Shown here: positions 1-32,728 of the stretch, one piece after another
How positions within the stretch are numbered: position 1 is the stretch's first letter
How the letters are laid out: each line of letters begins with the position of its first letter
IMG/VR virus record: IMGVR_UViG_3300046000_007017
Coordinates: 1-37,972 of that record
Origin: a virus
DNA: 37,972 nucleotides
Strand: one strand, 5' to 3'
Notes under the pieces: generated by a model
The model's database searches: none
Seen by the model: the letters and a program-made list of their open reading frames with translations, nothing else
Told to the model about the DNA's origin: nothing
Made by a program: the position numbers and the translations under genes

Positions 1-48
1 ATGCTGATCCACACGTTTACGATTATATCACCAAACAATGTCCTTCGA
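1..48. repeat. Terminal direct repeat, left copy (circular join)
   Basis: These 48 bases are identical to 37925-37972. A gene that starts at 37798 continues in frame through the repeat and on to the stop at 467. This is what an assembler produces at the ends of a circular or circularly permuted molecule, so one copy is redundant. A true short terminal repeat of the virion DNA is less likely because the repeat lies inside a coding sequence and no packaging signal is visible in it. Confidence 0.93.
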
Positions 49-467
49 TGACGCCGGGAATGCTGAACACGTTGGAGCGCATCGGACGCGGGCAGATCAT
101 CCCGGCGCTGGCGATGGACAATTCGCCTGGATCGCGGAAGTTGAAGAGCTTGCCGATTTCGCTTCAGCAACGATTCGAGACGGAACCAATCCCGCTCATC
201 GTCATGAGGAATGATGAGCCGGATGTTCTCCTAGTGAAGAGGGAGGACATGACCGCAGCGCAGGCCAACCAGGCGTTTCGTAATGGCAGGCTATCTACCG
301 AGGGTGAACAACGCGCTTGGATCGAGGACTACAAGATGAAGGCGCAAACGGCGAAACCAGCGGGATCGGAGGCAGCTTCATGGGAGATCCGCGGCAAGGT
401 GCTGGTCGTCGGCAACGTTCGATTCAGTCAGAAACAACTTCTCTCGTTCGCCGCACAAATGGCGTGA
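3..467 (+). CDS. Conserved phage protein of unknown function, C-terminal part (gene crosses the join)
   Basis: This is the 3' part of the gene that starts at 37798. Joining the two pieces at the 48-base overlap gives one 197-residue protein. The ATG at 48 is internal (residue 59), not the true start, because the upstream frame stays open through the join. The protein looks soluble, with no signal peptide or membrane segment. It has a helical N-terminus, a central motif ERIGRG, and a C-terminal stretch rich in beta-type residues (GKVLVVGNVRF). I recognise the overall pattern from other phage and prophage genomes but know no function. It is the last gene of the replication and repeat-protein run, before the non-coding block at 468-822. 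Confidence 0.75.
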   Translation, partial: ADPHVYDYITKQCPSMTPGMLNTLERIGRGQIIPALAMDNSPGSRKLKSLPISLQQRFETEPIPLIVMRNDEPDVLLVKREDMTAAQANQAFRNGRLSTEGEQRAWIEDYKMKAQTAKPAGSEAASWEIRGKVLVVGNVRFSQKQLLSFAAQMA

Positions 468-554
468 GGTCAATGGGATTCTCTGGAATAATTTTAAGCA
501 AAATCGTCAAGCGTAATGCAAGCACCAATATGACGGAGGGAGACGCAGGGGCAC

Positions 555-616
555 GAAGGGGGCAGGAAGGGGGCAGGAAGGGGGCAGGAAGGGGGCAGGA
601 AGGGGGCAGGAAGGGG
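555..616 (+). repeat. G-rich 11-bp tandem repeat, about five copies, quadruplex-capable
   Basis: The unit GAAGGGGGCAG repeats with exact 11-base spacing; the single C of each unit falls at 563, 574, 585, 596 and 607. Runs of four to five G separated by 6-nt spacers match the pattern for a G-quadruplex on the + strand. Copies are identical, suggesting recent expansion or active upkeep. An imperfect lead-in lies at 536-554. Confidence 0.9.
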
Positions 617-662
617 CCTACAAACCAATTTGGCGGGTTCTCTTTGAGAAGCGTCACAAATG

Positions 663-704
663 CTCCCCCTCCCCCCTTCCCGCTAGGCCTTTACCTCCCC
701 CCCC
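663..704 (-). repeat. C-rich tracts (G-runs on the minus strand)
   Basis: Runs of five, six and eight C lie at 665-669, 671-676 and 697-704, with a CCC at 679-681, so the minus strand carries four G-runs. This mirrors the G-rich repeat about 50 bases upstream. The two blocks could form alternative quadruplexes on opposite strands or pair with each other imperfectly. Confidence 0.7.
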
Positions 705-783
705 ATTAAGGAATCTTTTTAATGACAGGAGAGAGGCAGGTTTGGGGCGCGTGCCTTGACCGTGTGCGGAAAAAATTTTCAAC

Positions 784-813
784 TTGTAAACGCAACAAAA
801 ATCAAACTAGATC
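784..813 (+). promoter_or_regulatory. Possible promoter for the ParB / ABC-GNAT / terminase operon
   Basis: TTGTAA, an 18-base spacer and TAGATC end nine bases before the ATG at 823. Match to the sigma-70 consensus is weak (4/6 and 3/6). It is reported because the position fits and because the spacer carries an AATCAA motif also seen at the better promoters at 25079 and 28428. Confidence 0.3.
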
Positions 814-822
814 CAGCCAGAA

Positions 823-1359
823 ATGAAAATCGAACAAATCAAAACAGCCGATCTGATTCCGTATGCGCGAAATTCCCGAAGCCATTCCGAAGCCCAAGTC
901 GCGCAGATCGCAGGATCCATCCGCGAGTTTGGATTCACCAACCCCATCTTGATCGACGCCGACAATGGGATTATTGCCGGTCACGGTCGAGTCATGGCGG
1001 CGGGCAAGCTCGACATGGAAAAGGTGCCGTGCATCCGGCTGACGCACCTGACCGACACCCAGCGCCGGGCCTACATCATCGCCGACAATAAGCTCGCCCT
1101 GAATGCCGGGTGGGATGAGGAGATGCTTGGGCTTGAGTTGGCAGACTTGCGAGAATTGGATTTTAATTTTGATTTGCTTGGGTTTGATAATTCAGAAATG
1201 GAAGAACAGTTGAATCCAGAAAACAAAAAAACCACTGATGACATTAAAATCAATTCTTGTTTTGAAGTAATTGCAGAATGCGAGCATGAAGAAGAACAGC
1301 AAATGGTTTACAATATACTTACTGAAAAACAAATTAAATGCAGAATCTACACATTGTAA
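823..1359 (+). CDS. ParB/sulfiredoxin-like domain protein
   Basis: This 178-residue protein has the ParB/Srx fold signature: an N-terminal YARNSRSH stretch (14-21), a helix followed by FGFTNPILID (37-46), the core motif IIAGHGR (50-56) and the typical DNKLALNAGWD (88-98). The ParB N-terminal family includes partition NTPases, nucleases and parts of phage modification enzymes. There is no partition helix-turn-helix, so plasmid-type segregation is unlikely. The C-terminal 35 residues (FEVIAECEHEEEQQ onward) resemble a tail I associate with ParB proteins paired with ABC-GNAT fusions. The gene overlaps the next one by 22 bases, indicating coupling. Base composition changes from GC-rich to AT-rich near 1130, inside the gene, pointing to a recombination joint. 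Confidence 0.8.
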   Translation: MKIEQIKTADLIPYARNSRSHSEAQVAQIAGSIREFGFTNPILIDADNGIIAGHGRVMAAGKLDMEKVPCIRLTHLTDTQRRAYIIADNKLALNAGWDEEMLGLELADLRELDFNFDLLGFDNSEMEEQLNPENKKTTDDIKINSCFEVIAECEHEEEQQMVYNILTEKQIKCRIYTL

Positions 1360-2417
1360 GAGAAACAAAAATTGAAAAATCATTTCGAGTTTCTCAAATT
1401 TGCGGAATGTTTGATTTTGACCAAACAACAATTCGTGAAGAATGGAATTCAAATTTGCCTATAAATGAAAAAAAATGGGGAATTGGTTTAATAGTTGGTT
1501 CTTCAGGTTCCGGGAAAACAACTTTAGCTCGTGAAGCTTTCAAACATTTTAAATTTCACGAAGGTTATAAATGGGACTCAGCAAAATCGGTAGCTGACGG
1601 TTTTCCTGATGAATTTACCGTGAAGCAAATTATTTCCGCTTTTAATTCGGTTGGATTTAGTTCTCCTCCACATTGGTTAAAACCTTTTTTTCATTTAAGC
1701 AACGGTCAAAAATTTAGGGTTGAATTAGCTCGATGTATTTTAACCGAAAAAACCGGTGTGGTTTTTGATGAGTTTACATCAGTCGTTGATCGAGACGTTG
1801 CAAAAATAGGTTGCGCCGCTATTTCAAAATTTATCAGAAGGAATGAAAGCCCTCCGTTCGTCGCGGTTTCTTGTCATTATGACATCATTGACTGGCTTGA
1901 TCCAGATTGGGTGTTTGATGTCAACTTGCAGCGATTTGAATGGAGGGAGCGAAGGCGATTCCCTAAAATCATCATCAACATTGAAAAAACAGATAGAAAA
2001 ACATGGGACCTATTTAGGAAATATCACTATTTAGATCATAATTTAAGCAATGCTGCTCAATGCTATTTAGCAACTTGGGAAGAAAAGCCAGTTGGTTTTT
2101 GTTCCGTAATTCATTTTCCTCATCCAAGTTCTAGAGTTTTGAAAAGAGAACATCGCACCGTGGTGCTTCCGGATTTTCAAGGAATTGGAATTGGAAATCG
2201 TTTATCTGAATTTGTGGCTAAAGTTTACATAAAGCTTGGATATCGCTTTATAAGCACAACTTCTGCGCCCAGTATGATTAAATATCGTAGCAATTCAAAA
2301 AATTGGAAATGTCATCGTTTTGGCAGAGTTGCAATGCCAAAAACGGGCATTCAAAGCAAAGACAAATCTATATCCATAAAAAGAATCACGGGAGGATTTG
2401 AATACGTCGGACCATGA
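1338..2417 (+). CDS. ABC-type ATPase fused to GNAT acyltransferase (COG2401-like), candidate DNA modification enzyme
   Basis: Residues 1-205 form an ABC ATPase: Walker A GSSGSGKTT (54-62), signature LSNGQ (120-124), Walker B VVFDEF (141-146) with E145, and H-loop His180. There are no membrane segments, so it is not a transporter subunit. Residues 210-359 form a GNAT-like domain: HYLDH (230-234), RTVVLPDF (273-280) and acyl-CoA loop QGIGIG (281-286). This order matches the family described as ABC-type ATPase fused to a predicted acetyltransferase (COG2401, from memory). The GNAT half resembles the fold of Mu Mom, so a role in modifying phage DNA together with the ParB-like partner is my inference. 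The gene is markedly AT-rich compared with the terminase genes it abuts (overlap 2414-2417). Confidence 0.82.
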   Translation: MQNLHIVRETKIEKSFRVSQICGMFDFDQTTIREEWNSNLPINEKKWGIGLIVGSSGSGKTTLAREAFKHFKFHEGYKWDSAKSVADGFPDEFTVKQIISAFNSVGFSSPPHWLKPFFHLSNGQKFRVELARCILTEKTGVVFDEFTSVVDRDVAKIGCAAISKFIRRNESPPFVAVSCHYDIIDWLDPDWVFDVNLQRFEWRERRRFPKIIINIEKTDRKTWDLFRKYHYLDHNLSNAAQCYLATWEEKPVGFCSVIHFPHPSSRVLKREHRTVVLPDFQGIGIGNRLSEFVAKVYIKLGYRFISTTSAPSMIKYRSNSKNWKCHRFGRVAMPKTGIQSKDKSISIKRITGGFEYVGP

Positions 2418-3013
2418 GCGCAAAGAAAGAACCAGATCGTCAACACGGAATTTCTGCCGACATAGCGGAAAAGATCCGCAACGCCAACCTCGCCAACCTT
2501 ATCAAAAAGGTGAAGAGCGGCAAGACACTGACAGCGGCAGAAATAAAGTTGATCGACGAAGCTGAAAGCCAAACGGTAAGAAAAACATCCGCCACGCCAA
2601 AAATACCGGATATTGCGCAGTCAATGTCACAGGCAGCATCCATCTGGGGCATCCCCAAAAACATCCTGCGGGTCGCGAAGGCGTCGGGCTGCCCGGCGTT
2701 TGTCGAGCACAGGATCCACCGGGATGCGCTCCTGAAATGGCTGGATGAAAACCCGGACACCGCGACGAAGGGCGAAACCATTTCCGACGCCTCCGAGCTG
2801 AAGCGGCAAAAGTTGCAAGCCGAGGTGGAGTTGCTCCGCGTCAAAATCGACATGCAAAAGCGCACGCTGATATCGATGGACGAAGCTCGCTTCGAGTGGT
2901 CCCGATCCTTGGCTATTGGTCAGGAGGAGGCAAAGAACCTCATGGAGTCAGACGTTTATCGAGTGTTCTGCGAGCGGTGGAAATCGCGATGCGGGGAGGT
3001 TCTTCCGACATGA
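2414..3013 (+). CDS. Terminase small subunit (Nu1-like)
   Basis: At 199 residues it precedes the large terminase by an ATGA overlap. Residues 68-111 look like an excisionase-type winged helix-turn-helix (AQSMSQAASIWGIPK, then HRIHRDALLKWL), the DNA-recognition module of lambda Nu1-type subunits. Residues 127-152 (ELKRQKLQAEVELL) form a coiled helix for self-association, as is usual for the family. Its job would be to recognise the packaging site and recruit the large subunit. The first 60 residues are charged and not recognised. The start ATG at 2414 overlaps the preceding stop. Confidence 0.78.
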   Translation: MSAKKEPDRQHGISADIAEKIRNANLANLIKKVKSGKTLTAAEIKLIDEAESQTVRKTSATPKIPDIAQSMSQAASIWGIPKNILRVAKASGCPAFVEHRIHRDALLKWLDENPDTATKGETISDASELKRQKLQAEVELLRVKIDMQKRTLISMDEARFEWSRSLAIGQEEAKNLMESDVYRVFCERWKSRCGEVLPT

Positions 3014-4863
3014 CCCCGCGCCAAATCCTCGCTGACCTCATCGTCATTCCACACTCCGGCGATCTTGTCGAGTGGGCGGATGGCAAGCTGAAGCTGCCCT
3101 ATTCAGTCCGCTATCCAGTTTTCATGGCCGGGGAATCGCCGTGGCTGCTCGAGCCGATGCGAGCCATGTCAGACCCGAAAATTCGGCGCGTGGACTTTCG
3201 CGCTCCCGCAGGCGCCGCCAAGTCGCTCGTGGGCGAAATCCACATCGCGCATTCAATCGTTGAGACGCACGGCCTTTACTATTACGTATGGCAATCCGAT
3301 GACGACGCGAAGGACGCGATGGAAGATCGGATCATGCCGATGATCGAGGCCAACGATTTCCTTTCGCAGCGATTGCCAGCCGACAAAGACAAGGTGCGCA
3401 GGCAGAAAATTGTTTTCCCCGGGCTGTCATTCTATTGCATTTCGGCGAAACCATCGAAGGCAAACTCAAAGCGAGTCAAAACCCTCGTCATGGAGGAACC
3501 TCACCTTTACGATCCGGGCATGATGAAAGCATTTGAGGACCGCGTGACCGGCGTGAAAGGTTACAAAATCCTGACGCTATCCACCGGCTCGGTCCTTGAG
3601 GATGAATCAGACCTCGCGTATTGCGACGGATCATGCGAGGAGTGGCAGGTTCCGTGTCCGCACTGTCATCAGTTCCAGACCATGACCGATGCACGGGACC
3701 GCCTGCGCGCGCAAATCGATGGTGAGACACTGAGCGAAAGCGGCGAATACGATTGGAAGAAGCTCGCGGCAACCGTTCGTTACAACTGCGAGCACTGCGG
3801 GCTGGACTGGCCAACGGATCGGAAGTTCCGGCACGAGCAATCCAAGCTCGGCCGCTACATCGCGACAAACCCCAATGCATCGGAAGACCATCGGAGCTTC
3901 CACCTTGAGGCGGTTTCTATCCACTACGATGGATTTGAACTAGCGACGACGCTTATAAAAAAGCTGAAAGCCGTGGCCGCTTACAAACGGGGCGCAATTC
4001 AGCCGTTCATGAACTACATGCAGAAAACGCGGGCGATGGCGTGGGATGAATCACCAACATCGAGCGACGACGCCGCCGCCTTTGACCGCATGAAGGGTGA
4101 ATATTTCAAAAAAGATCCGCACGAATTCGAGATTGCCCGGTTCCTGACGATCGACAACCAAGCCGGAAAAGCAAGCCAAGGACAAGGCGCGCACCGATGG
4201 TTCGTCTGCCGGTCACTCGGGCCGACGGAATGCAGGCTAGTCGACGAAGGCCGGATTACATCATGGGAGGAACTGGAAGAGAAACGGATCGAACTGGGCG
4301 TGGAACCCGGGCGCACTCTCGTTGACATCGCCTTTGATACCGTGGCGGTGCAAGCCGTCTGCGTCCGCTATGGCTGGCAAGGCCTATGGGGAGACAGCAC
4401 GGGCAAAAAGTCATTTCCTCATCACGAAACGGTCATGATTCAAAACCAGCCGCAGCGAGTGGTTCGACACTATCCGTTTTCGTCCGTTAACATCGGTCAC
4501 GTCGGGATCGGCAAGTCCGGCGTTCGCAGGCAGGCGCGCTACTTCTTCTGGTGCCAACATCCGATCAAAAACATGTGGCATCGTCTTAAATCCGGCATGA
4601 CCCCACTTTACCGGTGGACCGTGGCGCAGGACGTGAGCGACGAATACAAAGCGCAAACGAACGTCGAGTTCAAGAAAATGCAGACCGACAGGAACGGCAA
4701 AAAGTCGTGGCAATGGTTCACGCAATCGAAGAAGGACAATCACCTAACGGACTGCGATCAAATGTGCCTCGTCGGCGCTCTCATGGATTCAAGGCTGCGG
4801 GAAATCCTCTGGAGCGGTGGCGGCGAAGAAACGCCGGTGACCGAGGTCCAAGAAACGAAATGA
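3010..4863 (+). CDS. Terminase large subunit, GpA family
   Basis: The packaging motor ATPase and nuclease, 617 residues from the ATG at 3010. The frame stays open further upstream to 2896, but that part only overlaps the small-subunit gene; the ATGA overlap at 3010-3013 and the family-like N-terminus support the later start. Visible features: deviant Walker A APAGAAKS (65-72), Walker B LVMEE (159-163), a zinc-binding pair CPHC (216-219) and CEHC (260-263), and a C-terminal RNase H-like nuclease region with acidic motifs FLTIDNQ, LVDIAFD and LTDCDQ. This matches the lambda gpA type (PF05876), which usually cuts at cohesive or defined sites. It acts at the portal during DNA packaging. Confidence 0.95.
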   Translation: MTPRQILADLIVIPHSGDLVEWADGKLKLPYSVRYPVFMAGESPWLLEPMRAMSDPKIRRVDFRAPAGAAKSLVGEIHIAHSIVETHGLYYYVWQSDDDAKDAMEDRIMPMIEANDFLSQRLPADKDKVRRQKIVFPGLSFYCISAKPSKANSKRVKTLVMEEPHLYDPGMMKAFEDRVTGVKGYKILTLSTGSVLEDESDLAYCDGSCEEWQVPCPHCHQFQTMTDARDRLRAQIDGETLSESGEYDWKKLAATVRYNCEHCGLDWPTDRKFRHEQSKLGRYIATNPNASEDHRSFHLEAVSIHYDGFELATTLIKKLKAVAAYKRGAIQPFMNYMQKTRAMAWDESPTSSDDAAAFDRMKGEYFKKDPHEFEIARFLTIDNQAGKASQGQGAHRWFVCRSLGPTECRLVDEGRITSWEELEEKRIELGVEPGRTLVDIAFDTVAVQAVCVRYGWQGLWGDSTGKKSFPHHETVMIQNQPQRVVRHYPFSSVNIGHVGIGKSGVRRQARYFFWCQHPIKNMWHRLKSGMTPLYRWTVAQDVSDEYKAQTNVEFKKMQTDRNGKKSWQWFTQSKKDNHLTDCDQMCLVGALMDSRLREILWSGGGEETPVTEVQETK

Positions 4864-6118: not shown

Positions 6119-6379
6119 ATGGCAGACATTAACGCGCTGGTCGGGCTGGAATCTGCCGACCTCATCGAAATCCGGGACGCCTGCAAGGCCGCCATTGTGG
6201 CTGGTGCCGTTCGCGGGATTTCATACACCATCGCGGGCCGGTCGTTCTCATTCCCGTCCCTAGCGGACTGCCAAAGCACGCTCGCCGCCGCTGTTTATGC
6301 CCTCGGGATTTTGAATGGCACTAGGTCCACTAACGTGCGGGCCAATTTTAACCCTAGCGTTGGGAGGGGCACGCGATGA
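6119..6379 (+). CDS. gpW-like head-tail joining protein
   Basis: 86 residues. A short helical protein lies between terminase and portal in lambda-type gene order, the place of gpW. It has an N-terminal helix (DLIEIRDACKAAIVAGA), a beta hairpin (GISYTIAGRSFSFPS) and a second helix (DCQSTLAAAVYALG), matching the helix-hairpin-helix layout of gpW-like proteins. A purine-rich GAGAGG about nine bases before the ATG is a usable ribosome binding site. The stop overlaps the portal start (ATGA at 6376-6379). In the particle it would sit at the bottom of the portal channel. Confidence 0.6.
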   Translation: MADINALVGLESADLIEIRDACKAAIVAGAVRGISYTIAGRSFSFPSLADCQSTLAAAVYALGILNGTRSTNVRANFNPSVGRGTR

Positions 6380-9300
6380 AATCCGACCTCAAGCTCGGCG
6401 TGCTCGACAGCATGATTTGCGCGATTTCGCCAGAGCGAGGGCTGAAGCGCCTTGCCGCTCGCCGCGTGCTGCACCAGTTCCGCTACGACGGCGCCATCGC
6501 CGACAGCCGCCGGGGAACTGCCCCGCAGAACATGTCGCCAAACTCGTTCGATGTGCAGCGCGATCGCCTGCAACTCATGCGCGAGGCCGAGGACATGGAG
6601 CGAAATTTTGCGCCGGCCAAGATGTTGAACCGCAAATTCGCGAGCTACGTCACGCCGAATAGCTACCATGCGCAGACCGGGGACACCGTGCTCGACAAGG
6701 AGATTGAGGAGTATCTCATCGAGGATGCTTTCCTAAATTGCGACATCACCCGCCGGTATGATTTCTACCGAATGCTGGAGTTCGCAGTCCTTGGATGCAA
6801 TCGCGGCGGGGATTACGGGTTTGCATTCCAACGCCCAGGGTCGCACCCGGACATGTCCGAGGATGAGCTAGTTCAGCTTCCATTCCGCATTCAGGCCATC
6901 GAGCCGGACCGCATCGGTGGCATTTACCAAAACGTCGTTTCCAACGATTACGTCTCCGGGCTGAACATCGGCGAGCATGGCCAAATTGATTCGTTCCGCG
7001 TGTTTCACCGGTCGATGACGACAAATACATACGACAATCCCATCGATGTCCCTGCGGCCGATTTCGTCCACCTGACGGACCCAATGCGGATCGACCAATA
7101 TCGGGGCGTGTCGATCCTTGCGACCGCCATCCAGAACTTGCGGGATCTTTACGAGATGATTGATTTCGTGAAGGGCAAAGCCAAGCTGGCCAGCGCGCTG
7201 ACGGTTTTCACAAACTCAAATGGTGCATTGGCAGGCAGCAGCGCGATGGATGCATACGCTACGAACCTTTTCCCCGGCGATGCCACCGGCCTTCAGCAGG
7301 ATATCCAATTCGGCCAAATCAACCACCTAGCCGCCGGGACCGACATAAAGTTCCCCGCCAGCTCATCGCCATCGAGCGAAGAGCAATGGTTGATGACCCA
7401 GCTCCTAAAGTTCGTGGCCATGAGTTACGATCTGCCCTACTCGTTCGCGCTCGATGCGTCCGCCCTCGGTGGCGTTTCCAGCCGCTTGGAATCTGAGATG
7501 GCGAAGGCAACCTTCGAGCGTTTCCAGCTAGTTCTCGCACCGCACGCGAACAGGATAAAAAACGCCATGCTTTTCGACGCAACGGCAAAGGGCATTTTCC
7601 CAGCCTCAAAACTCTCGATCATCCATCGGGGCCGCTGGGGCTATCGTCCGCATCCGCAGCCGGACCTCGGCAGGGAAGCCAGCGCCGCCGTGAACCTTTA
7701 TCAAAACGGCCTGCTCGATCCAATGAAACACTGGGTTGATAATGGGCAAGACCCAGAATCGGTGGCGACATCGATGGCGCGCTGGGCACTCATTAAAAAG
7801 GCGACCGCAGAAAAGGCCGGGCTGGAAATCTTCGACATCTTCGGCAGCGGACCGACGACCCCAACCGCTACTTCGGAAAGCACCTCGATTGCCGAAGAGG
7901 CAACGAAGGAATTTTCGGCTCGCAAAGAATATCGCGAGTCCGACAAATCCATCGATTCCCAGATCGACGAAGAGCGCGACAACGTGGAATTCGGCACTGA
8001 TTGGGTGGCAGATATCAGGGAGGGAATTGCTGACCTTGCCAACGGCGAAAACCCGGAAACGTTGCAACGCCTGCGCGTGGAATTGGACAAAGCCAACGCT
8101 TATCTAAAGAAGCATCAAGATGTCCTCGATAAGTTGCAAGACCGCCGCCAACGCCGTGACAAGGAGAAGCCGAAGAAGCCAGTTGCGGACCGTGAGTCGA
8201 AGGAAACCCGCGCCAAAAAAATCAATGATCGCCACGCATTAACCGAAGCGCTTAAAGCGAGCGGCAAAGGTGAAGCGGAAGCATACGCGATTGCATACGC
8301 AATCATTGAAAAAGGTCAGTTTGACAAGAGCAAGCTGCCTTCCGACATCAAAGAGAAGTATTTCTCTTCTAAGTGTTTTAAATCAAATGTTCCATTTGAT
8401 GAATCAAAACACAAACGCGCTGATGATGGAAAATTTGGACCCGGAGGAAACAAATCATCATCTGGCAGAAGTCAGCGTGCATCTATAGGAAATCTTGTTG
8501 CAGCGACTCGTGAAGGTTCTGGCAAAGAATCAAAAATTACAATTGAAGGCAAACCAGCCCCAGATTTCATTAAGCCCGGAATGATTCCGCCCGCGTATTC
8601 TTACAACATTCGTCTGGCAACCGATAAAAATTCGGACGTTTGGGCTATTAGCGAAGACGAAAAAGGAAACACCAAGCGTGTTTATAATCCAGAATTTGAA
8701 AAGCGAAATGCCGCGATTAAATGGGCAAGGACTAACGAAGGAGTTGGAAAAATTGACGCCATTCGCTCACAGATCCAAAACGACCGCAATCAAGGCAAAA
8801 ACAAGGAGCAGGCAGATGCTGCATGGTTAATGTCCGCGCAGGCAACTCGACCCGGAAGTGAAGAAGACACCAAAGGTAACAAATCGCTTTGGGCAAAACC
8901 CGTATCAACTAATAATTTCACGCTTACTCCACAATCAAAGGGCCCTCCAAAAGTTACACTTAATGTAGGCGATTCCAAAATCACCATTCGTGATGAAGGG
9001 GCAAGGGCAGAAATTGCCAACCGCATTGAGCGCGGAGAAAGTATGGGAGACGCTGGATATTGGCTGAAATCCCACGGAGCCACCACGCTAGAAGGTCGTC
9101 ACATCATTGAAAGCCCGGATGGAAGAGCAAACCTCCGGTTCATGGGAAAAGAAGGTGTTTGGCACGATCACAAGGTTTCTGATTCAAACCTTTCCGCAAT
9201 GCTGCTGGAACGAAAAGCAAAGTCAGGCGATACAGGGAAAATTTTCAATACCGATTATGACAAAGTTTCTAAATACGTGGGCACGCTCGGCGGCGGAGGT

Positions 9301-9519
9301 TTTTCCCCCAAAGACATGCGAACAATTCGCGCCAACGAATTGGCCACAAATCTAATTGGCGGAGCAATCAACGTAAATGGGGAAGATGAACGAAAAGCCA
9401 TAATCAAGGACATCGCCATTAAGGTTTCCCGTGTCCTTGGCAACCGACCTCAACAGGCTTTGGAAAGCTACATCAACCCGATAATTTTTGATGCAATCAA
9501 ATTGAAAAAATCCGCATGA
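6376..9519 (+). CDS. Portal protein (lambda gpB type) fused to a type IB DNA topoisomerase domain
   Basis: 1047 residues, about twice the usual portal length. Residues 1-500 are a lambda-family portal: FRYDGAIADSRRG, a Thr/Asn-rich loop, FAVLGCNRGGDYGF, the EPDRIGG segment and the FVAMSYDLPYSF...GGVSSRLESE region. Residues 505-625 are helical and highly charged. Residues 671-692 hold FDESKHKRADDGKFGPGG, a spacer type common in phage head proteins before accessory domains. Residues about 728-1040 match type IB topoisomerase in order: Arg825 in ATRPGSE, TTLEGRHI (903-910), Lys925 in FMGKEG, Arg982 in KDMRT, Asn1023 in VLGNRP and nucleophile Tyr1032 in SYINP. The active-site residues are thus retained, with Asn replacing His as in bacterial members. 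DNA becomes AT-rich from about 8330, where the extra domain begins, suggesting acquisition. It could relax DNA during packaging or ejection. Confidence 0.88.
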   Translation: MKSDLKLGVLDSMICAISPERGLKRLAARRVLHQFRYDGAIADSRRGTAPQNMSPNSFDVQRDRLQLMREAEDMERNFAPAKMLNRKFASYVTPNSYHAQTGDTVLDKEIEEYLIEDAFLNCDITRRYDFYRMLEFAVLGCNRGGDYGFAFQRPGSHPDMSEDELVQLPFRIQAIEPDRIGGIYQNVVSNDYVSGLNIGEHGQIDSFRVFHRSMTTNTYDNPIDVPAADFVHLTDPMRIDQYRGVSILATAIQNLRDLYEMIDFVKGKAKLASALTVFTNSNGALAGSSAMDAYATNLFPGDATGLQQDIQFGQINHLAAGTDIKFPASSSPSSEEQWLMTQLLKFVAMSYDLPYSFALDASALGGVSSRLESEMAKATFERFQLVLAPHANRIKNAMLFDATAKGIFPASKLSIIHRGRWGYRPHPQPDLGREASAAVNLYQNGLLDPMKHWVDNGQDPESVATSMARWALIKKATAEKAGLEIFDIFGSGPTTPTATSESTSIAEEATKEFSARKEYRESDKSIDSQIDEERDNVEFGTDWVADIREGIADLANGENPETLQRLRVELDKANAYLKKHQDVLDKLQDRRQRRDKEKPKKPVADRESKETRAKKINDRHALTEALKASGKGEAEAYAIAYAIIEKGQFDKSKLPSDIKEKYFSSKCFKSNVPFDESKHKRADDGKFGPGGNKSSSGRSQRASIGNLVAATREGSGKESKITIEGKPAPDFIKPGMIPPAYSYNIRLATDKNSDVWAISEDEKGNTKRVYNPEFEKRNAAIKWARTNEGVGKIDAIRSQIQNDRNQGKNKEQADAAWLMSAQATRPGSEEDTKGNKSLWAKPVSTNNFTLTPQSKGPPKVTLNVGDSKITIRDEGARAEIANRIERGESMGDAGYWLKSHGATTLEGRHIIESPDGRANLRFMGKEGVWHDHKVSDSNLSAMLLERKAKSGDTGKIFNTDYDKVSKYVGTLGGGGFSPKDMRTIRANELATNLIGGAINVNGEDERKAIIKDIAIKVSRVLGNRPQQALESYINPIIFDAIKLKKSA

Positions 9520-9800
9520 AAATAACAGGACTACCAATTAACGTGTCTTTTGGGGAAAGCGATGGCCCTGATTGGAGAAAAAATGCTTCAGCGCCTTCAC
9601 CGCATGATGAGGCAGAGGATTCCGAAGATGCCGAAGAGGATTATAAAAATGCTGTAGCATCAACTTTGGGATTTGATCCTTCAGAGCTTTTCAAAGACGA
9701 AAAGCATTTCTCCGCCAACCAAAACGAAGTTCATTTCGCAAAGGTCAGCGAGCGCGGCGCAATCGTCGCGTCTGAAAAAGCGCCGAAGGCCACGAAATAA
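9516..9800 (+). CDS. Small acidic protein between portal and protease
   Basis: 94 residues, overlapping the portal stop (ATGA at 9516) and the next start (TAATG at 9798-9802). The middle is a run of Asp/Glu (DEAEDSEDAEEDYK, 31-44). No recognised domain, signal peptide or membrane segment. The gene shares the AT-rich composition of the topoisomerase segment before it, so the two may have arrived together. An assembly-chaperone or scaffold role fits its place in the head module but is only a guess. Confidence 0.6.
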   Translation: MKITGLPINVSFGESDGPDWRKNASAPSPHDEAEDSEDAEEDYKNAVASTLGFDPSELFKDEKHFSANQNEVHFAKVSERGAIVASEKAPKATK

Positions 9801-11152
9801 TGAAAGCCCCCCAATACATTATCGACGCGGCAGAACGCGGGCTGGAGTTACTCCGGGAAGGCAAGGGCGGGGATGGCCTTACCGAAGGCACGAAGGACGC
9901 GGCGCGCAAAATGGCCGATGGCGAAGTGAGCGAAGAGAAGATCGTCAAGGCCAGTGCTTGGCACGCCAGGCACAAAGTTGACTTGGATTCGCCTAACAAT
10001 AGCAACCCGCAGGACAAGGACTATCCAGCCGCTGGCGCAGTGGCGCACTTCTTGTGGGGCATCAATCCGCTCGATCCGCAACCGGCCAGAGATTGGTTTG
10101 ATCGGCAATCCGAGAAGATACAAAACGAAAAATCTTTCGCTATGGGAACTTCCAAAAAGCACTACTTCACAGCACTCGAAACCGAGCAAATCGACTTTGA
10201 GAACGGAATCATCCGATCCGTTTCACTCATGGAAATGGGCGATGCGAAAGGCCATTTCGACAAGAAAGGTCGGCAGGTCATCATCGACACCGTCACGCTC
10301 CAACAGGTCTTCAACGCCTGCAACAAGCTAGGCTCGATCAAGGTCAAGGCCGATCACGGGAGCGGCATTTTCGAGATCGTTGGATGGGCCGACAACTTCT
10401 CGCTCAAGGCCGACAAGGTTTGCGCCGACGTTCACATCTATGAGTCGGAGCCTAACCGCAAACGCTTGTTTGAAATCGCAGAGAAGAATCCGACTCACAT
10501 GGGCGTCAGCATGGAATTCACCGGCGAAGACAAGCCATCGGGAGCTACCAGCATGTCCCGTTGCGATGCCGTTTACGCCGCCGCGCTCGTCGATGACCCC
10601 GCCGCCAACAGCTCACTTTTTTCCGTTCCAGCAACAAAAGCGGAACAATACCTAGAAGAACAAACCAACACCAATAACAAAATGGAATCAGAAACTGACG
10701 ACGTTAAAAAAGACCCAACCATCGCTGACCTTATGGCAAAATATGAGGAGCTTGGGAAGCGCATGTCTGCGCTCGAAATGCCTATCGAAAAGATGGAAAT
10801 CGAGATCGAGCAAGACGATGAAGAGCCAGCTCTCGAAATGAAGGAGTGCGAGGAAAAAACCAAATCCGAAGAAAAGGAAGAGGACAAAAAAATCGAGATG
10901 GCCGCTAAGCTCGGGGCCGAATCCGCAATTAAATTGTTCGCTGCAAAACTCGGAATCACCAACCTCGGTAAAGCCGGACCGCTTAACTCGAATGCCAAAG
11001 AAAAGCATTTTGAAGAGCACGTCGCAGACTTGGCCGTGAAGGAATTTTCCGGCGACCAAGGCAAAGCCCGCACCGCGATTCTGACAAACACAGGGAAATA
11101 CAACGATGCGTGGAATGCTTACAAAGCGGCCCGCCTCGTGAAGACCGCATAA
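9800..11152 (+). CDS. Capsid maturation protease with scaffold-like C-terminus
   Basis: 450 residues in three parts. Residues 1-110 (MKAPQYIIDAAERG...MADGEVSEEKI...HFLWG) are a helical module I have seen attached to or next to phage head proteases. Residues 120-275 look like a herpes-assemblin-type prohead protease: likely catalytic His186 in VKADHGSG and Ser237 in MGVSMEF, with a conserved DAVYAAALVDDPAANSSLF end (256-274). Residues 285-450 are strongly charged (EEKTKSEEKEEDKK), then a helical tail (GDQGKARTAILTNTGKYNDAW), typical of a scaffold. The enzyme would sit inside the procapsid, guide shell assembly and then trim scaffold. An internal ATG at 10682 could give a separate scaffold form, as in lambda C/Nu3, but it lacks a visible ribosome site. 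Confidence 0.78.
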   Translation: MKAPQYIIDAAERGLELLREGKGGDGLTEGTKDAARKMADGEVSEEKIVKASAWHARHKVDLDSPNNSNPQDKDYPAAGAVAHFLWGINPLDPQPARDWFDRQSEKIQNEKSFAMGTSKKHYFTALETEQIDFENGIIRSVSLMEMGDAKGHFDKKGRQVIIDTVTLQQVFNACNKLGSIKVKADHGSGIFEIVGWADNFSLKADKVCADVHIYESEPNRKRLFEIAEKNPTHMGVSMEFTGEDKPSGATSMSRCDAVYAAALVDDPAANSSLFSVPATKAEQYLEEQTNTNNKMESETDDVKKDPTIADLMAKYEELGKRMSALEMPIEKMEIEIEQDDEEPALEMKECEEKTKSEEKEEDKKIEMAAKLGAESAIKLFAAKLGITNLGKAGPLNSNAKEKHFEEHVADLAVKEFSGDQGKARTAILTNTGKYNDAWNAYKAARLVKTA

Positions 11153-11567: not shown

Positions 11568-12533
11568 ATGCCTTATACCAACGCACAAGCAACTCCTCGG
11601 AGCGATATTGCCGCCCTCGTCATGCAGGCGAACGCGGACTTCAACAAAATGTTCATCGGCGATTTGATCCTTCCCGTTAAGGGCGAGGATGTGAAACGCG
11701 GAATCTACATGAAGGCGAAGCTCGCCAATGCCGAACTGATGAACGGCGATGCTAAGCCCCGCGCAAACGGTGCCGCATACGACCGCATCAATCGCGCATA
11801 CGATGTGGACCAATACGACGCCATTGAGTACGGCCTTGAAGCCGTTATCGATGATGCCTATGAGGCCGAAGTCGAGCGCTTCATGAACCTGGAAGCTACC
11901 GAAGCCATGCTCCTTGAGCGTTCGCTTCGTATTTCCTACGAGGTTCGTGTGGCCGCCGCCGTGATGAACTCCAGCACGTTCACCGCTACCGCTGCCGCTG
12001 TCGCTTACACCGAGGCCAACCTCGCAACGATCAACCTTCCTGCCGATGTCGCCGCCGCCAAGCTGCGCCTCCTGAAGAAGGGCATCGTTCCGAACGCCAT
12101 CATCATGTCTGCAAACGTGTTCAATCGCATTCAGCGTTCGACACTTATGCAGAACCAGATCTTCGGTGTCGTGCCGAAGTCGGCTGGCCAGTTCACTCTT
12201 CCGGGTGAAGACGACGTTGCCCGCGCTCTCGGCGTGGACAAATTGTATGTCGCCAAGGCCGCGAAGAATGGCAATGCAAAGGGTCAAACCTTTTCGGGAT
12301 CGTTCATCTTTCCCGACACGCACGTCAATGTCTGCCAGGTCATGGGTGGCGAGTATCAATCCGGCGGAATCGGACGGACAATCCAGTGGTCTAAAGACAC
12401 CACAGGACTTTTCACCCCCGAGACCTACCGTTCGGATGAGCGCCGCTCCAACATCATCCGCGTTCGCCAGCACGTCGCGGAGAAGATCGTAGACGAAACC
12501 GCCGGTGAGCTTATCACCACTAGCTTCGCCTAA
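11568..12533 (+). CDS. Major capsid protein
   Basis: 321 residues in the usual place between decoration protein and head-tail genes. It looks like an HK97-fold subunit of the lambda E-like class: a long N-terminal helix region (SDIAALVMQANADFNKMF), an extended E-loop-like stretch (60-90), a helical P-domain (ATEAMLLERSLRISYEVRVA), and a beta-rich end (GGIGRTIQWSKDTTGLF). No long delta domain is present, consistent with the scaffold function lying in the protease gene. The start lacks a Shine-Dalgarno sequence. A 10-bp hairpin follows the stop at 12550. Confidence 0.88.
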   Translation: MPYTNAQATPRSDIAALVMQANADFNKMFIGDLILPVKGEDVKRGIYMKAKLANAELMNGDAKPRANGAAYDRINRAYDVDQYDAIEYGLEAVIDDAYEAEVERFMNLEATEAMLLERSLRISYEVRVAAAVMNSSTFTATAAAVAYTEANLATINLPADVAAAKLRLLKKGIVPNAIIMSANVFNRIQRSTLMQNQIFGVVPKSAGQFTLPGEDDVARALGVDKLYVAKAAKNGNAKGQTFSGSFIFPDTHVNVCQVMGGEYQSGGIGRTIQWSKDTTGLFTPETYRSDERRSNIIRVRQHVAEKIVDETAGELITTSFA

Positions 12534-12586: not shown

Positions 12587-12760
12587 ATGAAATACCCCAT
12601 GAATACACCTCAAATCGTTTGGCTGTCGATCCAATCCCTTGGAATCCTAGGATCGTTTTATCAACTCGGAAAAGACAAGAAGGGCACCGATTGCACAGCC
12701 AGAATCACCTTCGTTCTCATCAATAATTCCATCCTGTATTGGGGAGGATTTTTCTCATGA
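12587..12760 (+). CDS. Small membrane protein
   Basis: 57 residues starting at the ATG at 12587. It begins MKYPMNTPQIVWLSIQ, has a hydrophobic segment near residues 10-26 and another near 41-57 ending LYWGGFF, so it probably spans the membrane once or twice. I have seen small phage proteins with the same start and YWGGFF ending, of unknown function. The stop overlaps the glycosyltransferase start (12757-12760). It could anchor or cooperate with that enzyme, or act as a minor lysis or exclusion protein; neither is shown. A second ATG at 12599 is possible. Confidence 0.68.
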   Translation: MKYPMNTPQIVWLSIQSLGILGSFYQLGKDKKGTDCTARITFVLINNSILYWGGFFS

Positions 12761-14595
12761 AGATCGTTCTTTCATGCATCATCGGAAATGAGGAGAAAGT
12801 CATCGAGCGTTTCATCCGCTCGTTCGCTCCCGCTGTCGATTCGTTCGTTCTCGTTTCCGCTACTGGAACCGCCGGGACCGATCTTTCGCTGCAAACTGCG
12901 ACCCTCATTTGCGAGGAGTTGAAAAAACCGCTTTACCAAACCCGCTACGTCAACGCCGACGATTTGCCGCATGTCGATAACTTCGGGGCCGCTCGCCAAA
13001 AGGCGTGGGAGATCGCCAATGGATGCGCCCGCGAAGAGGATTTCATCATGTGGGCAGACGCAGATGACATCCTCGCCGAAGGTGCCGCAGAAGCGATCCG
13101 TGCCGCCGCAGAAGATGGCAAGCACGATGTCTATCTCATTCCCTACCATGTCCGGGGCGACAAGCAGATCGTCATGCGCGAACGTATGGTTCGCGCCCGC
13201 ATCGGATCCAAATGGCAATTCCCGATCCACGAGCAGCTATCGTTCCAGACGCCAGCAACCTATCGCATCCTCCGGGACGCAGCATTTATTCACGCGCCAT
13301 CGTCGGACAAATCCGGCGGCCATGAGCGCAATCTGGCCATCCTGAATTCGGCCACGGCGGAAACCTCGCGCAACTTCTTCTATTTGGCGCAGGAATACTT
13401 CCAGCGCGGGAAAGAAAAGCAGTTCAAGCAAATGGCAACCGTTGCCCTCGCCTGCCCGGACCTCGGGGAGATCGAGCGATATGAGCTTCTCCTGCAACAG
13501 GCGCAGACGCCCGGCATGGATTCCCGCAGGCTGGCCGCAGAGGCATTCGCCATCATGCCAGATCGGCGCGAAGCCCTGGCGCTTCTCGTTAGCTATTGCC
13601 TCATGGATGGCGACAACGTCAAGGCGTTGCGTCTGGCCGAAATTATGATCCAGACGGACAAGCCGACCCGTTCATACTGGAGCCAGAATAACGAATGGTA
13701 TGGCTGGAAAGGCGCAGAGCTTTACCGGCAATGCCTGCGGTTGAACGGCAAGGAAAAGGAAGCGGATATTGAGTTTGACCTCGGGATGACAAGCCCGTTT
13801 GAGGTGCCGCAATTTTCCATCATCCACGCCACGCTCGACCGGCCTGAGCAAGCGCTTGCCATCCGCGAGATGTGGCTTTCCCGCGCCAGCCGTCCAGAAA
13901 ATGTCGAATACGTTTTCGGCGTTCATGCGTTCGATGAGAAAAGCGTTAAGATGCTGTCAGGATTCAAGCACTCGGTGACCGATCAGAAAGGGCCAGGCTG
14001 GAACTACGACGTTGCCGCCGGCATCTCAACCGGCCAAATAATCATCCAGGCACAGGACGATTGCTACCCGCCGCAAGGCTGGGACGATTCACTTTTGCTT
14101 CTCATCGAGGACACGACAAAGCCCGTATTCATCGCCGTTAATGATGGTCATCGGACGGATCGCCTAAGCGTCAATACCATCATGACCCGCGCCTACATGG
14201 AGCGGAAAGCTAAGCGAGACTCGGGCGAAAACGGATTCTTCCATCGAGGATATGCCACGATTTACGCGGACACCGAAAACAGTTTCCGCGCCATCCAAGA
14301 CGGCATTGCTGGCGAGTGCGAATATATCGACGCGCAAGACTTCGTTCTATATCACGACCACCCGGCCTTTAATCCCTCGGTGCCGTGGGACAAAACCTAT
14401 GAGTGGGAAAATTCCCCGGAAAATTACAAATCCGGCGCGGAATTATTCGCCAAACGCAACCCGCAAGCCGGGCCGAACTGTTTGGACCGGCACGTCAAAA
14501 AACATCCAATCATGGACGACGCAGGCAAGATCCAGCTTTACGCCATCACTGAGCCGCTGATGCCGGAACCTGAACGTGAGGAGGCATTCGTATGA
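12757..14595 (+). CDS. Two-domain glycosyltransferase (GT2-like) inside the head-tail module
   Basis: 612 residues from the ATG at 12757, chosen over an upstream in-frame TTG because GGGGAGGA sits seven bases ahead. Residues 1-200 are a GT-A domain: MKIVLSCIIGNEE at the start, then ADADD (100-104), the metal/sugar-binding DxD. Residues 200-345 are helical with tetratricopeptide-like spacing. Residues 350-540 form a second GT-A-like domain (FSIIHATLDRP at 353-363, AQDD at 432-435, YHDHPAF at 532-538). It should transfer sugars from nucleotide donors. Lying between capsid and connector genes, its target may be a virion protein, but DNA or host surface polysaccharide cannot be excluded. No membrane segment or signal peptide. 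Confidence 0.82.
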   Translation: MKIVLSCIIGNEEKVIERFIRSFAPAVDSFVLVSATGTAGTDLSLQTATLICEELKKPLYQTRYVNADDLPHVDNFGAARQKAWEIANGCAREEDFIMWADADDILAEGAAEAIRAAAEDGKHDVYLIPYHVRGDKQIVMRERMVRARIGSKWQFPIHEQLSFQTPATYRILRDAAFIHAPSSDKSGGHERNLAILNSATAETSRNFFYLAQEYFQRGKEKQFKQMATVALACPDLGEIERYELLLQQAQTPGMDSRRLAAEAFAIMPDRREALALLVSYCLMDGDNVKALRLAEIMIQTDKPTRSYWSQNNEWYGWKGAELYRQCLRLNGKEKEADIEFDLGMTSPFEVPQFSIIHATLDRPEQALAIREMWLSRASRPENVEYVFGVHAFDEKSVKMLSGFKHSVTDQKGPGWNYDVAAGISTGQIIIQAQDDCYPPQGWDDSLLLLIEDTTKPVFIAVNDGHRTDRLSVNTIMTRAYMERKAKRDSGENGFFHRGYATIYADTENSFRAIQDGIAGECEYIDAQDFVLYHDHPAFNPSVPWDKTYEWENSPENYKSGAELFAKRNPQAGPNCLDRHVKKHPIMDDAGKIQLYAITEPLMPEPEREEAFV

Positions 14596-27015: not shown

Positions 27016-27233
27016 AATACCAAGCAGAATTAAACGACAGCGGAAAATCCGAATGCTTCGACACCGAGGACGATGCACTGGCTTACATCGCAGAGAACTT
27101 CCAGACCGAATGGGAAAATATCGGAACGTGGGAAGATGAGGACGGGCGAACACTGGTCTTTATGACCCAGGATGCCGCCGACGCCGCCGCCAACAATTCC
27201 GATGTGATCGCCACCATTACCGCCCTCGCATGA
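27012..27233 (+). CDS. Small acidic early protein, unknown
   Basis: 73 residues (MKYQAELNDSGKSECFDTEDD...). Very acidic with Trp and a helical Ala/Asp end (AADAAANNSDVIATITAL). No known motif. ATGA overlap with the Mom-like gene suggests coupled expression with that modification enzyme. Confidence 0.6.
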   Translation: MKYQAELNDSGKSECFDTEDDALAYIAENFQTEWENIGTWEDEDGRTLVFMTQDAADAAANNSDVIATITALA

Positions 27234-27940
27234 AACCAAAACCAACCCACGGCGGGAAATGCCTTGGCGTCTTTGTAACTCCAATGCCAGCAAAAGAGGC
27301 CGAACCATGGATATTGATACGGCACTACGCAAAGCGCAAATGTCCAATTTCCTACGCGTTTGGCGCTTATAGAAATGGAGAGCTTTTGGGCGTCGTTACA
27401 TTTGGCACGCCCGCAAGCTCGCCGCTTAGGGAAGGCGTAGCTGGGAGGGAATGGGCGGAATCCGTTCTGGAGCTGAATAGGCTGTGTTGCATAAGCGAAA
27501 AGAACATGGCAAGCCTGCTGGTCGGAGCCGCGCTGCGGATGCTGCCAAAACCGTCTCTGGTCGTGAGCTACGCGGACACGTCACAAGGACACGTCGGCTA
27601 CATCTACCAAGCCACGAACTTCGTTTACACCGGACTGAGCGCAAAGCGCACGGACTGGAAAATAAAAGGCCGAGAACATCTTCACGGCGCAACAATAGCA
27701 GACGAAAGCAGAGGGAAAGCTAACCGCGCCGAATGGATGCGCGAGAAATACGGGGATGATTTCTACCTCGAAGATAGACCAAGGAAACACCGATACGTCT
27801 ATTTTTGCGGCAACAAGCGGCAACGTGCCGACATGCGCGCCGCGCTCCGCTACCCGCAAGAGCAATACCCAAAAGGGGAAAGCCTGCGATACGACGCAAC
27901 CGGAGAGATCAAAACCCAAAGCACCTTTATTCTTGCTTGA
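27230..27940 (+). CDS. mom: Mom-like DNA adenine modification enzyme
   Basis: 236 residues. Residues 31-135 carry the pattern of phage Mom proteins: HYAKR (32-36), YAFGAYRNGELLGVVTFG (42-59), ELNRL (81-85), ASLLVGAALRMLP (94-106), VVSYAD (111-116) and GHVGYIYQATNFVYTG (120-135). In phage Mu this GNAT-fold protein converts adenine in DNA to N6-carbamoylmethyladenine, protecting it from restriction. The first ten residues (MKPKPTHGGK) resemble the start of the small protein at 28214, suggesting a shared leader peptide or recombination point. The gene ends the first early block; the next promoter is just behind it at 27950. No Com-type translational activator is recognised. Confidence 0.85.
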   Translation: MKPKPTHGGKCLGVFVTPMPAKEAEPWILIRHYAKRKCPISYAFGAYRNGELLGVVTFGTPASSPLREGVAGREWAESVLELNRLCCISEKNMASLLVGAALRMLPKPSLVVSYADTSQGHVGYIYQATNFVYTGLSAKRTDWKIKGREHLHGATIADESRGKANRAEWMREKYGDDFYLEDRPRKHRYVYFCGNKRQRADMRAALRYPQEQYPKGESLRYDATGEIKTQSTFILA

Positions 27941-30981: not shown

Positions 30982-31764
30982 ATGAGTATCATCCAGAAAA
31001 ACGACATCAAAAGTCTGATAAATTCAGACGCCATGCGCGAGCAATTCGCCCGTGCCCTTCCGAAACACCTATCGCCGGAACGGTTCGCCCGCATCGCAAT
31101 CACCGCGTTGACGAGGACCCCGAAGCTAGCCGACTGCACGCCAGCCAGCGTCATGAAATGTCTCCTCGACCTGTCTGCCATGGGTCTGGAACCTGATGGC
31201 CGGCGAGCGCACCTGATTCCCTACGGCTCCGAGGCAACGCTCATCATCGACTACAAGGGCCTAGTCGAACTCATCCGCCGATCCGGCGATGTCGTTAGCG
31301 TTCGCGCCGAAACCGTCTGCGAAAAGGACCTCTTCCAATGGACGGACGGAATCGTTAGCCACTCGGTCAACTGGCGGGAAGACCGGGGCAAAATTCAAGC
31401 GGTGTATGCCGAGGCCGTGATGAAATCCGGCGAGAAACAGACTGCGGTTATGACCTGCGCCGAGGTCGATGCAATCCGCCTGAAATCAAGGGCCGGGAAG
31501 AGCGGGCCGTGGGTTGACCACTGGGGCGAGATGGCAAAGAAAACCGCGGTGCGGCGCCTGTCAAAAATGCTGCCGCTGTCATCGGAAATCATGAGTCATG
31601 TTGAGCGCGACGACGACCAGTTCGCCGGGATGCGCGACGCCAACCCGCGCAAAAATCCGTTCGCCGCGCTTCCGATGACCGAGGATGCACCGCAGGCCGA
31701 TCCGCCTGCGGTGACCGCCGAGACGCCAGCCGACGCGCAGGATGGAAAGGAAAGCGCACAGTGA
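30982..31764 (+). CDS. recT: RecT-family single-strand annealing protein
   Basis: 260 residues with the RecT core: SVMKCLLDLSAMGLEPDG, HLIPYGSEATLIIDYKGLVEL and KKTAVRRLSKMLP. It binds single-stranded DNA and pairs complementary strands in phage recombination, working with the exonuclease encoded at 31928. The C-terminus (from about 215) is acidic and Pro/Ala-rich and probably disordered, a usual RecT trait. Coupled by a GTGA overlap to the next small gene. Confidence 0.93.
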   Translation: MSIIQKNDIKSLINSDAMREQFARALPKHLSPERFARIAITALTRTPKLADCTPASVMKCLLDLSAMGLEPDGRRAHLIPYGSEATLIIDYKGLVELIRRSGDVVSVRAETVCEKDLFQWTDGIVSHSVNWREDRGKIQAVYAEAVMKSGEKQTAVMTCAEVDAIRLKSRAGKSGPWVDHWGEMAKKTAVRRLSKMLPLSSEIMSHVERDDDQFAGMRDANPRKNPFAALPMTEDAPQADPPAVTAETPADAQDGKESAQ

Positions 31765-31925
31765 ATCTCTACCTAGACCATCAAATCGAAATCTCTGGAA
31801 TCATCGAAAACCTCAAAGATTCCGAGCGGATCGAGTGGATTCGCCAGCTCGCCCAGTCCTGCGAAACGGAGGGAACCATCACCGTGATTCGTGAAATCGT
31901 CAACAACCCCAAATTGAACGACTAA
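31761..31925 (+). CDS. Small protein between recT and exonuclease, GTG start
   Basis: 54 residues from GTG at 31761 (overlap GTGA with the recT stop). Helical: ISGIIENLKDSERIEWIRQLAQSC. No domain recognised. Its place inside the recombination operon suggests it helps RecT or the exonuclease, by position only. Confidence 0.58.
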   Translation: MNLYLDHQIEISGIIENLKDSERIEWIRQLAQSCETEGTITVIREIVNNPKLND

Positions 31926-31927
31926 CC

Positions 31928-32728
31928 ATGAGAATCATCGAACATGAGCAACGCTCGCCGGAATGGTTTGCCGCCCGGAAGGGGCTGTTCACCGCATCGA
32001 AGGTCGGCATGTTTTGCGCCGAGCCGTTCGCGATTTCCCTAACTGTGGCCGAGATCAAGGCACTACTCGATACCACCGGGGAGCCCTACAAATCGGCCGC
32101 AAAACGCGATGACCTACTGGCCATGCTGCCGAATGCGGAGCAATACATGGGCCTCGTCCCTGCCGCGCAAAACCTGATCGATACAACCCTCGGCGAGGCC
32201 GCTGATGGTGAGGACAGGCCGCCGGATTTGGGCAACTACTGGACGCGCAGGGGCACCGATATGGAACCGGAAGCAATCGCCGCGTATGAGCGCAAAACAT
32301 GTCACACCGTCACCGCAGTCGGCCTTTGCATCCACGACAGCGGGCATTTTGGCGCGAGTCCCGACGGGCTGGTTTATAAGGATTTCAGCAGGCTCTGCGG
32401 CAACGTAATGGTGACGGATGTCATCGTTTCCCACGGGCTGGAGGTCAAATGCCCCGAGGGAAAAGTTCACCTGAAATACCTGCGGGCCGGCACGGTTCCA
32501 GATGAATATCTCTGCCAGGTGCATTGCCAACTCGCGGTGACCGGCTGCGCGTTCTGGGACTTCTTCAGCTACCACCCGAACCTGCCGCCGTTGTTGGTCA
32601 GGATCCAGCGCGACGAGTTCACCGAGCGACTCTCCGCGGGACTAATCGCGCTGGGCGAGGAGAAGCGCAGGCAGGAAAAGGCGCTGGCCGAGGCATGGCG
32701 GGCGGAATTTGAGGAAGGCAAACAATGA
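31928..32728 (+). CDS. YqaJ-type viral recombinase exonuclease with an inserted HeH/SAP-like domain
   Basis: 266 residues. Lambda Red-type nuclease core: RSPEWFAARKGLFTASKVG (9-27), Glu113 in DMEPEAI, Asp146 in GASPDG, Glu172 and Lys174 in LEVKCP, and QVHCQLAVTG (197-206). It digests one strand of double-stranded ends to load RecT. Residues about 37-67 (SLTVAEIKALLDTTGEPYKS ... DDLLAMLP) look like a helix-extended loop-helix (HeH/SAP/LEM) DNA-binding module inserted near the N-terminus, not part of the usual core. Active-site residues look intact. Confidence 0.88.
   Translation: MRIIEHEQRSPEWFAARKGLFTASKVGMFCAEPFAISLTVAEIKALLDTTGEPYKSAAKRDDLLAMLPNAEQYMGLVPAAQNLIDTTLGEAADGEDRPPDLGNYWTRRGTDMEPEAIAAYERKTCHTVTAVGLCIHDSGHFGASPDGLVYKDFSRLCGNVMVTDVIVSHGLEVKCPEGKVHLKYLRAGTVPDEYLCQVHCQLAVTGCAFWDFFSYHPNLPPLLVRIQRDEFTERLSAGLIALGEEKRRQEKALAEAWRAEFEEGKQ

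Follow-up and report, generated by a model that had tools for sequence, protein, structure and literature searches.

We analyzed a 37,972-nucleotide stretch of viral DNA, the IMG/VR record IMGVR_UViG_3300046000_007017 (hereafter the window, meaning that whole stretch), in which the gene of a phage portal protein runs on into a predicted type IB topoisomerase (TopIB) domain. The gene is a single open reading frame (ORF) of 1,047 amino acids at 6376-9519, open throughout and starting with ATG, whose N-terminal part is a lambda-family portal: residues 46-356 match PF05136 (Phage_portal_2; E 5.2e-35), and a PHROG portal family matches the same part (E 4e-35). Its position agrees with this assignment, between a GpA-type terminase gene upstream (2896-4863) and, on the capsid side, a phrog_1005 major head protein gene downstream (11568-12533). 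Portal C-terminal domains lie inside the capsid.

The last 375 residues of the ORF match DNA topoisomerase IB (PF01028) at 34-37.8 bits, above the gathering score of 23.7 bits, and a phmmer search with the C-terminus aligned it to the Deinococcus radiodurans TopIB (2f4q) at E 2.6e-11 and to poxvirus TopIB at about 0.007. For residues 673-1047, an AlphaFold model computed from 10 aligned sequences (mean predicted local distance difference test score, pLDDT, 81.6) contains both the N-terminal and the catalytic domain of a TopIB. Scored against solved structures, it gave Z 17.9 over 266 residues with variola TopIB, Z 16.8 with D. radiodurans TopIB and Z 16.4 with human Top1, whereas tyrosine recombinases reached Z values of only 10-12. 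The model of the full-length portal (14 sequences, mean pLDDT 49.5) was uninformative. The initial annotation of this DNA had proposed that the portal ends, at 8392-9519 (residues 673-1047), in a TopIB domain with Arg825, Lys925, Arg982, Asn1023 and Tyr1032 in place. The profile and protein searches and the predicted fold agree with that proposal on both the portal and its tail, although the TopIB domain proper begins near residue 700, behind a linker tag at residues 665-691. All five residues were found exactly where it had put them, and a sixth catalytic residue, Lys979, accompanies them, which completes the order Arg, Lys, Lys, Arg, Asn, Tyr. None of the six varies among the phage relatives, which range down to 43% identity, or in three stand-alone TopIBs. 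Asparagine stands nine residues ahead of the tyrosine in place of the poxvirus histidine, the arrangement of the Pseudomonas aeruginosa and D. radiodurans enzymes; with this asparagine, the P. aeruginosa TopIB relaxes DNA (PMC2666729).

The alignment also revealed an insert of about 65 residues past the first catalytic arginine, a hallmark of the portal-TopIB phage group, and in a tree of 15 TopIBs the insert-bearing phage sequences grouped together, on long branches and with moderate basal supports. Comparison of the TopIB domain with that of the related locus L004 gave proportions of nonsynonymous and synonymous differences (pN and pS) of 0.118 and 0.755, indicating strong purifying selection. 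No in-frame ATG, GTG or TTG is present between 8250 and 8580, so that an intact TopIB domain would be made only as a fusion to the portal, within a single ORF. We conclude that the portal carries a real TopIB domain, which sequence and modelled fold predict to be catalytically complete. The features of the locus are collected in Table 1.

Table 1. Positions in the window of the portal-TopIB gene, its catalytic residues and its right-hand neighbours.
Feature	Positions	Strand	Basis
Lambda-family portal core, residues 1-485	6376..7830	+	PF05136 E 5.2e-35, PHROG portal
Portal C-terminal tail, residues 486-664; portals of TopIB-less sisters end here (...SKLPSDIQKKYYS stop)	7831..8367	+	Comparison with L021-L049
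Junction tag SKCFKSNVPFDESKHKRADDGKFGPGG, residues 665-691	8368..8448	+	Tag precedes many unrelated cargo domains
Type IB topoisomerase domain, N-terminal and catalytic parts, residues 697-1047	8464..9516	+	PF01028, sequence match in PDB, AlphaFold model compared with solved TopIBs
Catalytic Arg825	8848..8850	+	Invariant
Family-specific insert, about 65 residues, between catalytic Arg and Lys hairpin; absent from stand-alone TopIBs	8860..9057	+	Alignment
Catalytic Lys925	9148..9150	+	Invariant
Catalytic Lys979 and Arg982 (KDMR)	9310..9321	+	K and R invariant, with the same spacing as Lys247/Arg250 in P. aeruginosa TopIB (three residues)
Catalytic Asn1023 (bacterial TopIB has Asn here, poxviruses have His)	9442..9444	+	Invariant
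Nucleophile Tyr1032	9469..9471	+	Invariant
Small acidic partner ORF, 94 amino acids, isoelectric point 4.7; ATG overlaps the TopIB stop	9516..9800	+	Most TopIB relatives are followed by a comparable acidic ORF
Putative capsid protease/scaffold ORF with extra N-terminal domain; right-hand neighbour of the cassette	9800..11152	+	phrog_2859

Presence, absence and exchange of the cassette

To place the fusion among its relatives, 32 loci with related portals were fetched for comparison. Several complete portals among them stop at ...SKLPSDIQKKYYS or nearby, with the ATG of the next gene overlapping the stop, while the window portal has the same tail and then runs on into SKCFKSNVPFDESKHKRADDGKFGPGG and the topoisomerase. 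The cleanest pair is L004, which has the TopIB, and L031, which lacks it: they are 95% identical up to position 3257, the end of the portal, and 91% identical again from 4607, the next start codon, and the 1,349 bases of difference consist entirely of the tag, the TopIB and a small acidic ORF. At L006 this cassette immediately follows the portal core, and the tail that belongs to the portal forms the C-terminus of the small acidic ORF (7122-7778), which suggests that there the cassette split the portal gene. G+C content in the window falls from 0.58 across the portal core to 0.46 across the cassette. When the window is compared with L003, the synonymous divergence (dS) is 0.07 for the TopIB and 0.42 for the portal core, which fits separate histories. 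By hidden Markov model (HMM) and protein search, no TopIB was found elsewhere in the available stretches of the TopIB-less sister records; since PF01028 missed the L051 TopIB in one search that a protein search then found, one HMM search without a hit counts for little as evidence of absence. Taken together, the alignments indicate that the TopIB is a swappable cassette of tag, TopIB and small acidic ORF, an interchangeable C-terminal cargo on a conserved carrier.

To the right of the cassette, the gene assigned a putative protease role on the strength of its position and sequence has homologues that, in the sisters, directly overlap the portal stop. Its extra N-terminal domain (9800-10190, phrog_2859) is shared by the window and L003 and is absent from the shorter homologues of the sisters. 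The window also encodes a RecT annealing protein and a YqaJ/RecE-type exonuclease (30982-32728), possible agents of cassette exchange.

A second portal family uses the same site. TopIB is also present on the lambda-type portal of L007, which is only 24% identical to the window portal, while its TopIB is 64-66% identical to those of the window group; the L006 row of this portal comparison had been read in a wrong frame and was left out. A scan for portals of the L007 type yielded 27 loci whose core proteins are 97-100% identical and whose C-termini vary: the portal has no tail (stop at ...AALAFDESK), or it ends in a coiled coil of 211 residues, in two tagged modules in tandem (L062/L064 and L065) or in the TopIB with its acidic ORF. 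The DNA flanking these alleles is 91-98% identical, and the cargo modules start with FDE(S/G)KHPRxxDGKFGxGG or a close variant. Neither Pfam nor PHROGs assigned a function to the alternative tails.

The tag DESKHPRxxDGKFGxGG also occurs ahead of other enzymes. A degenerate DNA pattern for it matched 44 stretches in IMG/VR, and a Pfam run on ten of the tag-bearing ORFs identified portals with the tag and an ADP-ribosyltransferase (L110, L119), with the tag and ART-PolyVal (L114), and with the tag and a cupin (L097), as well as a tag-bearing ORF with PBECR1 and NUDIX domains (L102). At L087 (12254-14443) the order is NUDIX, tag, a TopIB lacking the insert, tag and a further domain, which places another TopIB lineage in a comparable setting. 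Candidate roles for the tag are targeting, a cleavage site and a recombination point.

Relatives off the portal and the acidic partner

Relatives of the TopIB were found in IMG/VR at 13 uncultured loci, several of them duplicates, and their neighbourhoods are not confined to portals. TopIB is a separate ORF at L015, after a protein with MuF and PI3/4-kinase-like parts; at L018, after a MuF and ADP-ribosyltransferase protein and GNAT/kinase-like proteins; and at L051, after a protein that combines portal, 2H and kinase parts. At L016 it forms the C-terminus of a 1,301-amino-acid, polyvalent-like protein with a 2H phosphoesterase domain, and the next ORF has a weak Kinase-PolyVal match. The N-terminal part of the L017 protein matched no portal model, its identity as a portal resting on position only. 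Passages of PMC5512222, PMC5576092 and PMC9503650 read comparable MuF- and portal-fused contexts as packaged, injected effectors; in the parts of these sources covered, the word topoisomerase occurs in PMC5512222 only in the title of a reference, and in PMC5576092 not at all. A side observation at L018 is a weak intein-splicing match, below the cut-off, in its MuF and ADP-ribosyltransferase protein (1-4218).

The TopIB stop overlaps or closely precedes an acidic ORF of 58-94 residues in the window and at L003-L008, L010, L015, L017 and L018 (longer in L003 and L006). In the eight examined, the acidic ORF has an isoelectric point (pI) of 4.05-4.74, against 8.5-9.7 for the TopIB domains (9.6 in the window), except for L018 at 6.8. 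The acidic protein alone, used as a query, returned only loci already in the set. Its position and charge suggest that it probably binds the basic TopIB as an inhibitor or chaperone. At L003 (7125-7763) the acidic ORF is extended by a DUF5824-like domain, just under the Pfam cut-off, which the window copy lacks.

Three further genes of the window are side observations. A Mom-like DNA modification protein (27230-27940; PHROG 3.6e-53) is likely anti-restriction, one protein combines matches to an ABC-type ATPase and a GNAT acetyltransferase (1338-2417; phrog_11143, 9e-103), and a glycosyltransferase-like protein directly follows the major head protein (12739-14595), a position at which several sister phages have an ORF of similar appearance.

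What the cassette may do

We consider it reasonably probable that the TopIB tail is exchangeable virion-borne cargo on the portal, acting on DNA at entry. This reading is drawn from the sister phages without TopIB and from the other cargo at the same site on sister portals, which disfavor a requirement for the enzyme in packaging. The portal C-terminus would serve as a docking site for exchangeable cargo, here a complete TopIB that would move together with a small acidic protein, the two genes forming one cassette. Passages of PMC4992974 describe portal C-terminal domains as facing the capsid interior, and this orientation would put as many as 12 copies of TopIB on the packaged DNA. A prohead protease may cut the tag and linker, or the domain may stay tethered. 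The enzyme would then work on DNA at or just after entry, altering, to the advantage of the phage, how its incoming genome or the DNA of the host is supercoiled, and the acidic protein would keep the basic TopIB inhibited or chaperoned until entry. Read from sequence were the joining of TopIB to the portal, the completeness of the active site, the limits of the cassette, the pattern of presence, absence and swapping, the common tag and the purifying selection. A wider version, which we put forward only tentatively and regard as rather doubtful, is a general polymorphic system of portal tails marked by DESKHPRxxDGKFGxGG, with swappable enzymes riding in the virion, one of them a topoisomerase with an acidic inhibitor that would be released or injected to reset supercoiling early in infection.

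Several points weigh against virion-borne cargo. No cleavage site was identified in the tail, and a tethered portal domain cannot be ejected uncut. TopIB is not an obvious toxin or anti-defense enzyme, and its catalysis, its location in the virion, its cleavage or release and its delivery by injection are steps that we infer. Every relative comes from a metagenomic fragment; two scans of genome contigs gave no confirmed relative, and so no host can be assigned. The acidic ORF of the more distant relatives is poorly conserved (21-29% identity) beyond its charge and an LGFDP motif, so that homology between near and far members is weak and partly rests on position; at L016 an acidic-like stretch begins a large ORF about 0.9 kb downstream of the TopIB, and at L051 an acidic ORF was looked for and not found.

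Among the alternatives, relief of torsion in place fares best, though we regard it as unlikely: a portal-tethered TopIB would relax twist during packaging or exit, improve either process and stay in the capsid. It accounts for an intact active site fused to a DNA channel protein, a fusion repeated on a very distant lambda-type portal, and the initial annotation had likewise supposed that the enzyme acts where packaging and ejection create torsion. A required role of this kind is, however, not borne out, as sisters whose flanks are 95% identical do without the domain, no TopIB was found in the rest of their available stretches, sisters of the second portal bear unrelated tails, and relatives of the TopIB are also encoded away from the portal, as ORFs of their own, at L015, L018 and L051. 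Carriage into the next host, which the same annotation had raised as its other option, fits both the evidence of cassette exchange and the company that the domain keeps, with delivery itself presumed.

That the domain merely holds DNA near the portal, its catalysis no longer needed, would suit its basic character (pI 9.6) and the 65-residue insert that sets it apart from known TopIBs; it is nevertheless improbable, given six catalytic residues that stay invariant down to 43% identity and asparagine-to-tyrosine and lysine-to-arginine spacings as in active enzymes. Least credible of all is a self-mobilising element whose TopIB would shift its own cassette between portals by strand transfer, like a tyrosine recombinase: the fold is related to that of tyrosine recombinases (Z 10-12) and cassettes occur at several portal positions, but the TopIB match is far better than that to any recombinase, non-TopIB cargo uses the same tag and site, which makes exchange independent of TopIB, and the window's own RecT and YqaJ-type exonuclease could recombine at the common tag DNA.

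Should the reading as virion-borne cargo hold, the phage would bring control of DNA topology with its particle, and the need of packaged or entering DNA for torsion relief would become directly testable. At the portal C-terminus there appears to be a site for interchangeable cargo, and its recognisable tag offers a handle for finding more virion-borne effectors. The acidic partner, for its part, is a candidate for a protein that regulates a TopIB.

Relation to known systems

The initial annotation knew of no characterised phage with a portal-TopIB fusion, and this holds for the 50,697 named phage records of INPHARED and for the literature searched (coverage partial), beside the relatives at the 13 uncultured loci. 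Neither those named records nor the same, partially covered literature yielded a cassette of TopIB and acidic ORF, and INPHARED and PLSDB held only distant stand-alone TopIBs.

With the bacterial enzymes of P. aeruginosa and D. radiodurans the window TopIB shares the fold, the catalytic Arg, Lys, Lys, Arg, Asn and Tyr, the key spacings and an N-terminal domain; it differs in its fusion to a portal, in the insert of about 65 residues after the first catalytic arginine and in an identity of 22-26% to the stand-alone enzymes aligned. Stand-alone TopIBs are likewise encoded by tailed phages, namely the jumbo phages Motura, PaBG, RSL1 and Lu11, the Bacteroides phage BS162P1 and the Xanthomonas PhiXhv phages (PMC7824862), but these are separate genes and, as far as seen, lack the portal fusion of the window. 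Poxviruses offer a precedent for a packaged TopIB, topoisomerase 1 being listed among the known enzymes of the vaccinia virion (PMC1540416), although that study itself did not detect it, the enzyme is not fused to a structural protein and the virus is one of eukaryotes.

In organization, the window resembles the portal- and MuF-fused injected effectors and polyvalent proteins described in passages of PMC5512222, PMC5576092 and PMC9503650, with which it shares an enzyme on a head or portal protein near the packaging genes, modular exchange, and the same tag and neighbours. It departs from them in its cargo, a topoisomerase, which is absent from the passages on those effectors, and in the acidic partner ORF. 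Stand-alone phage TopIBs and portal-fused effectors were already known, whereas the portal-TopIB fusion, the cassette of TopIB and acidic ORF and its apparent swappability appear new against the records and literature searched.
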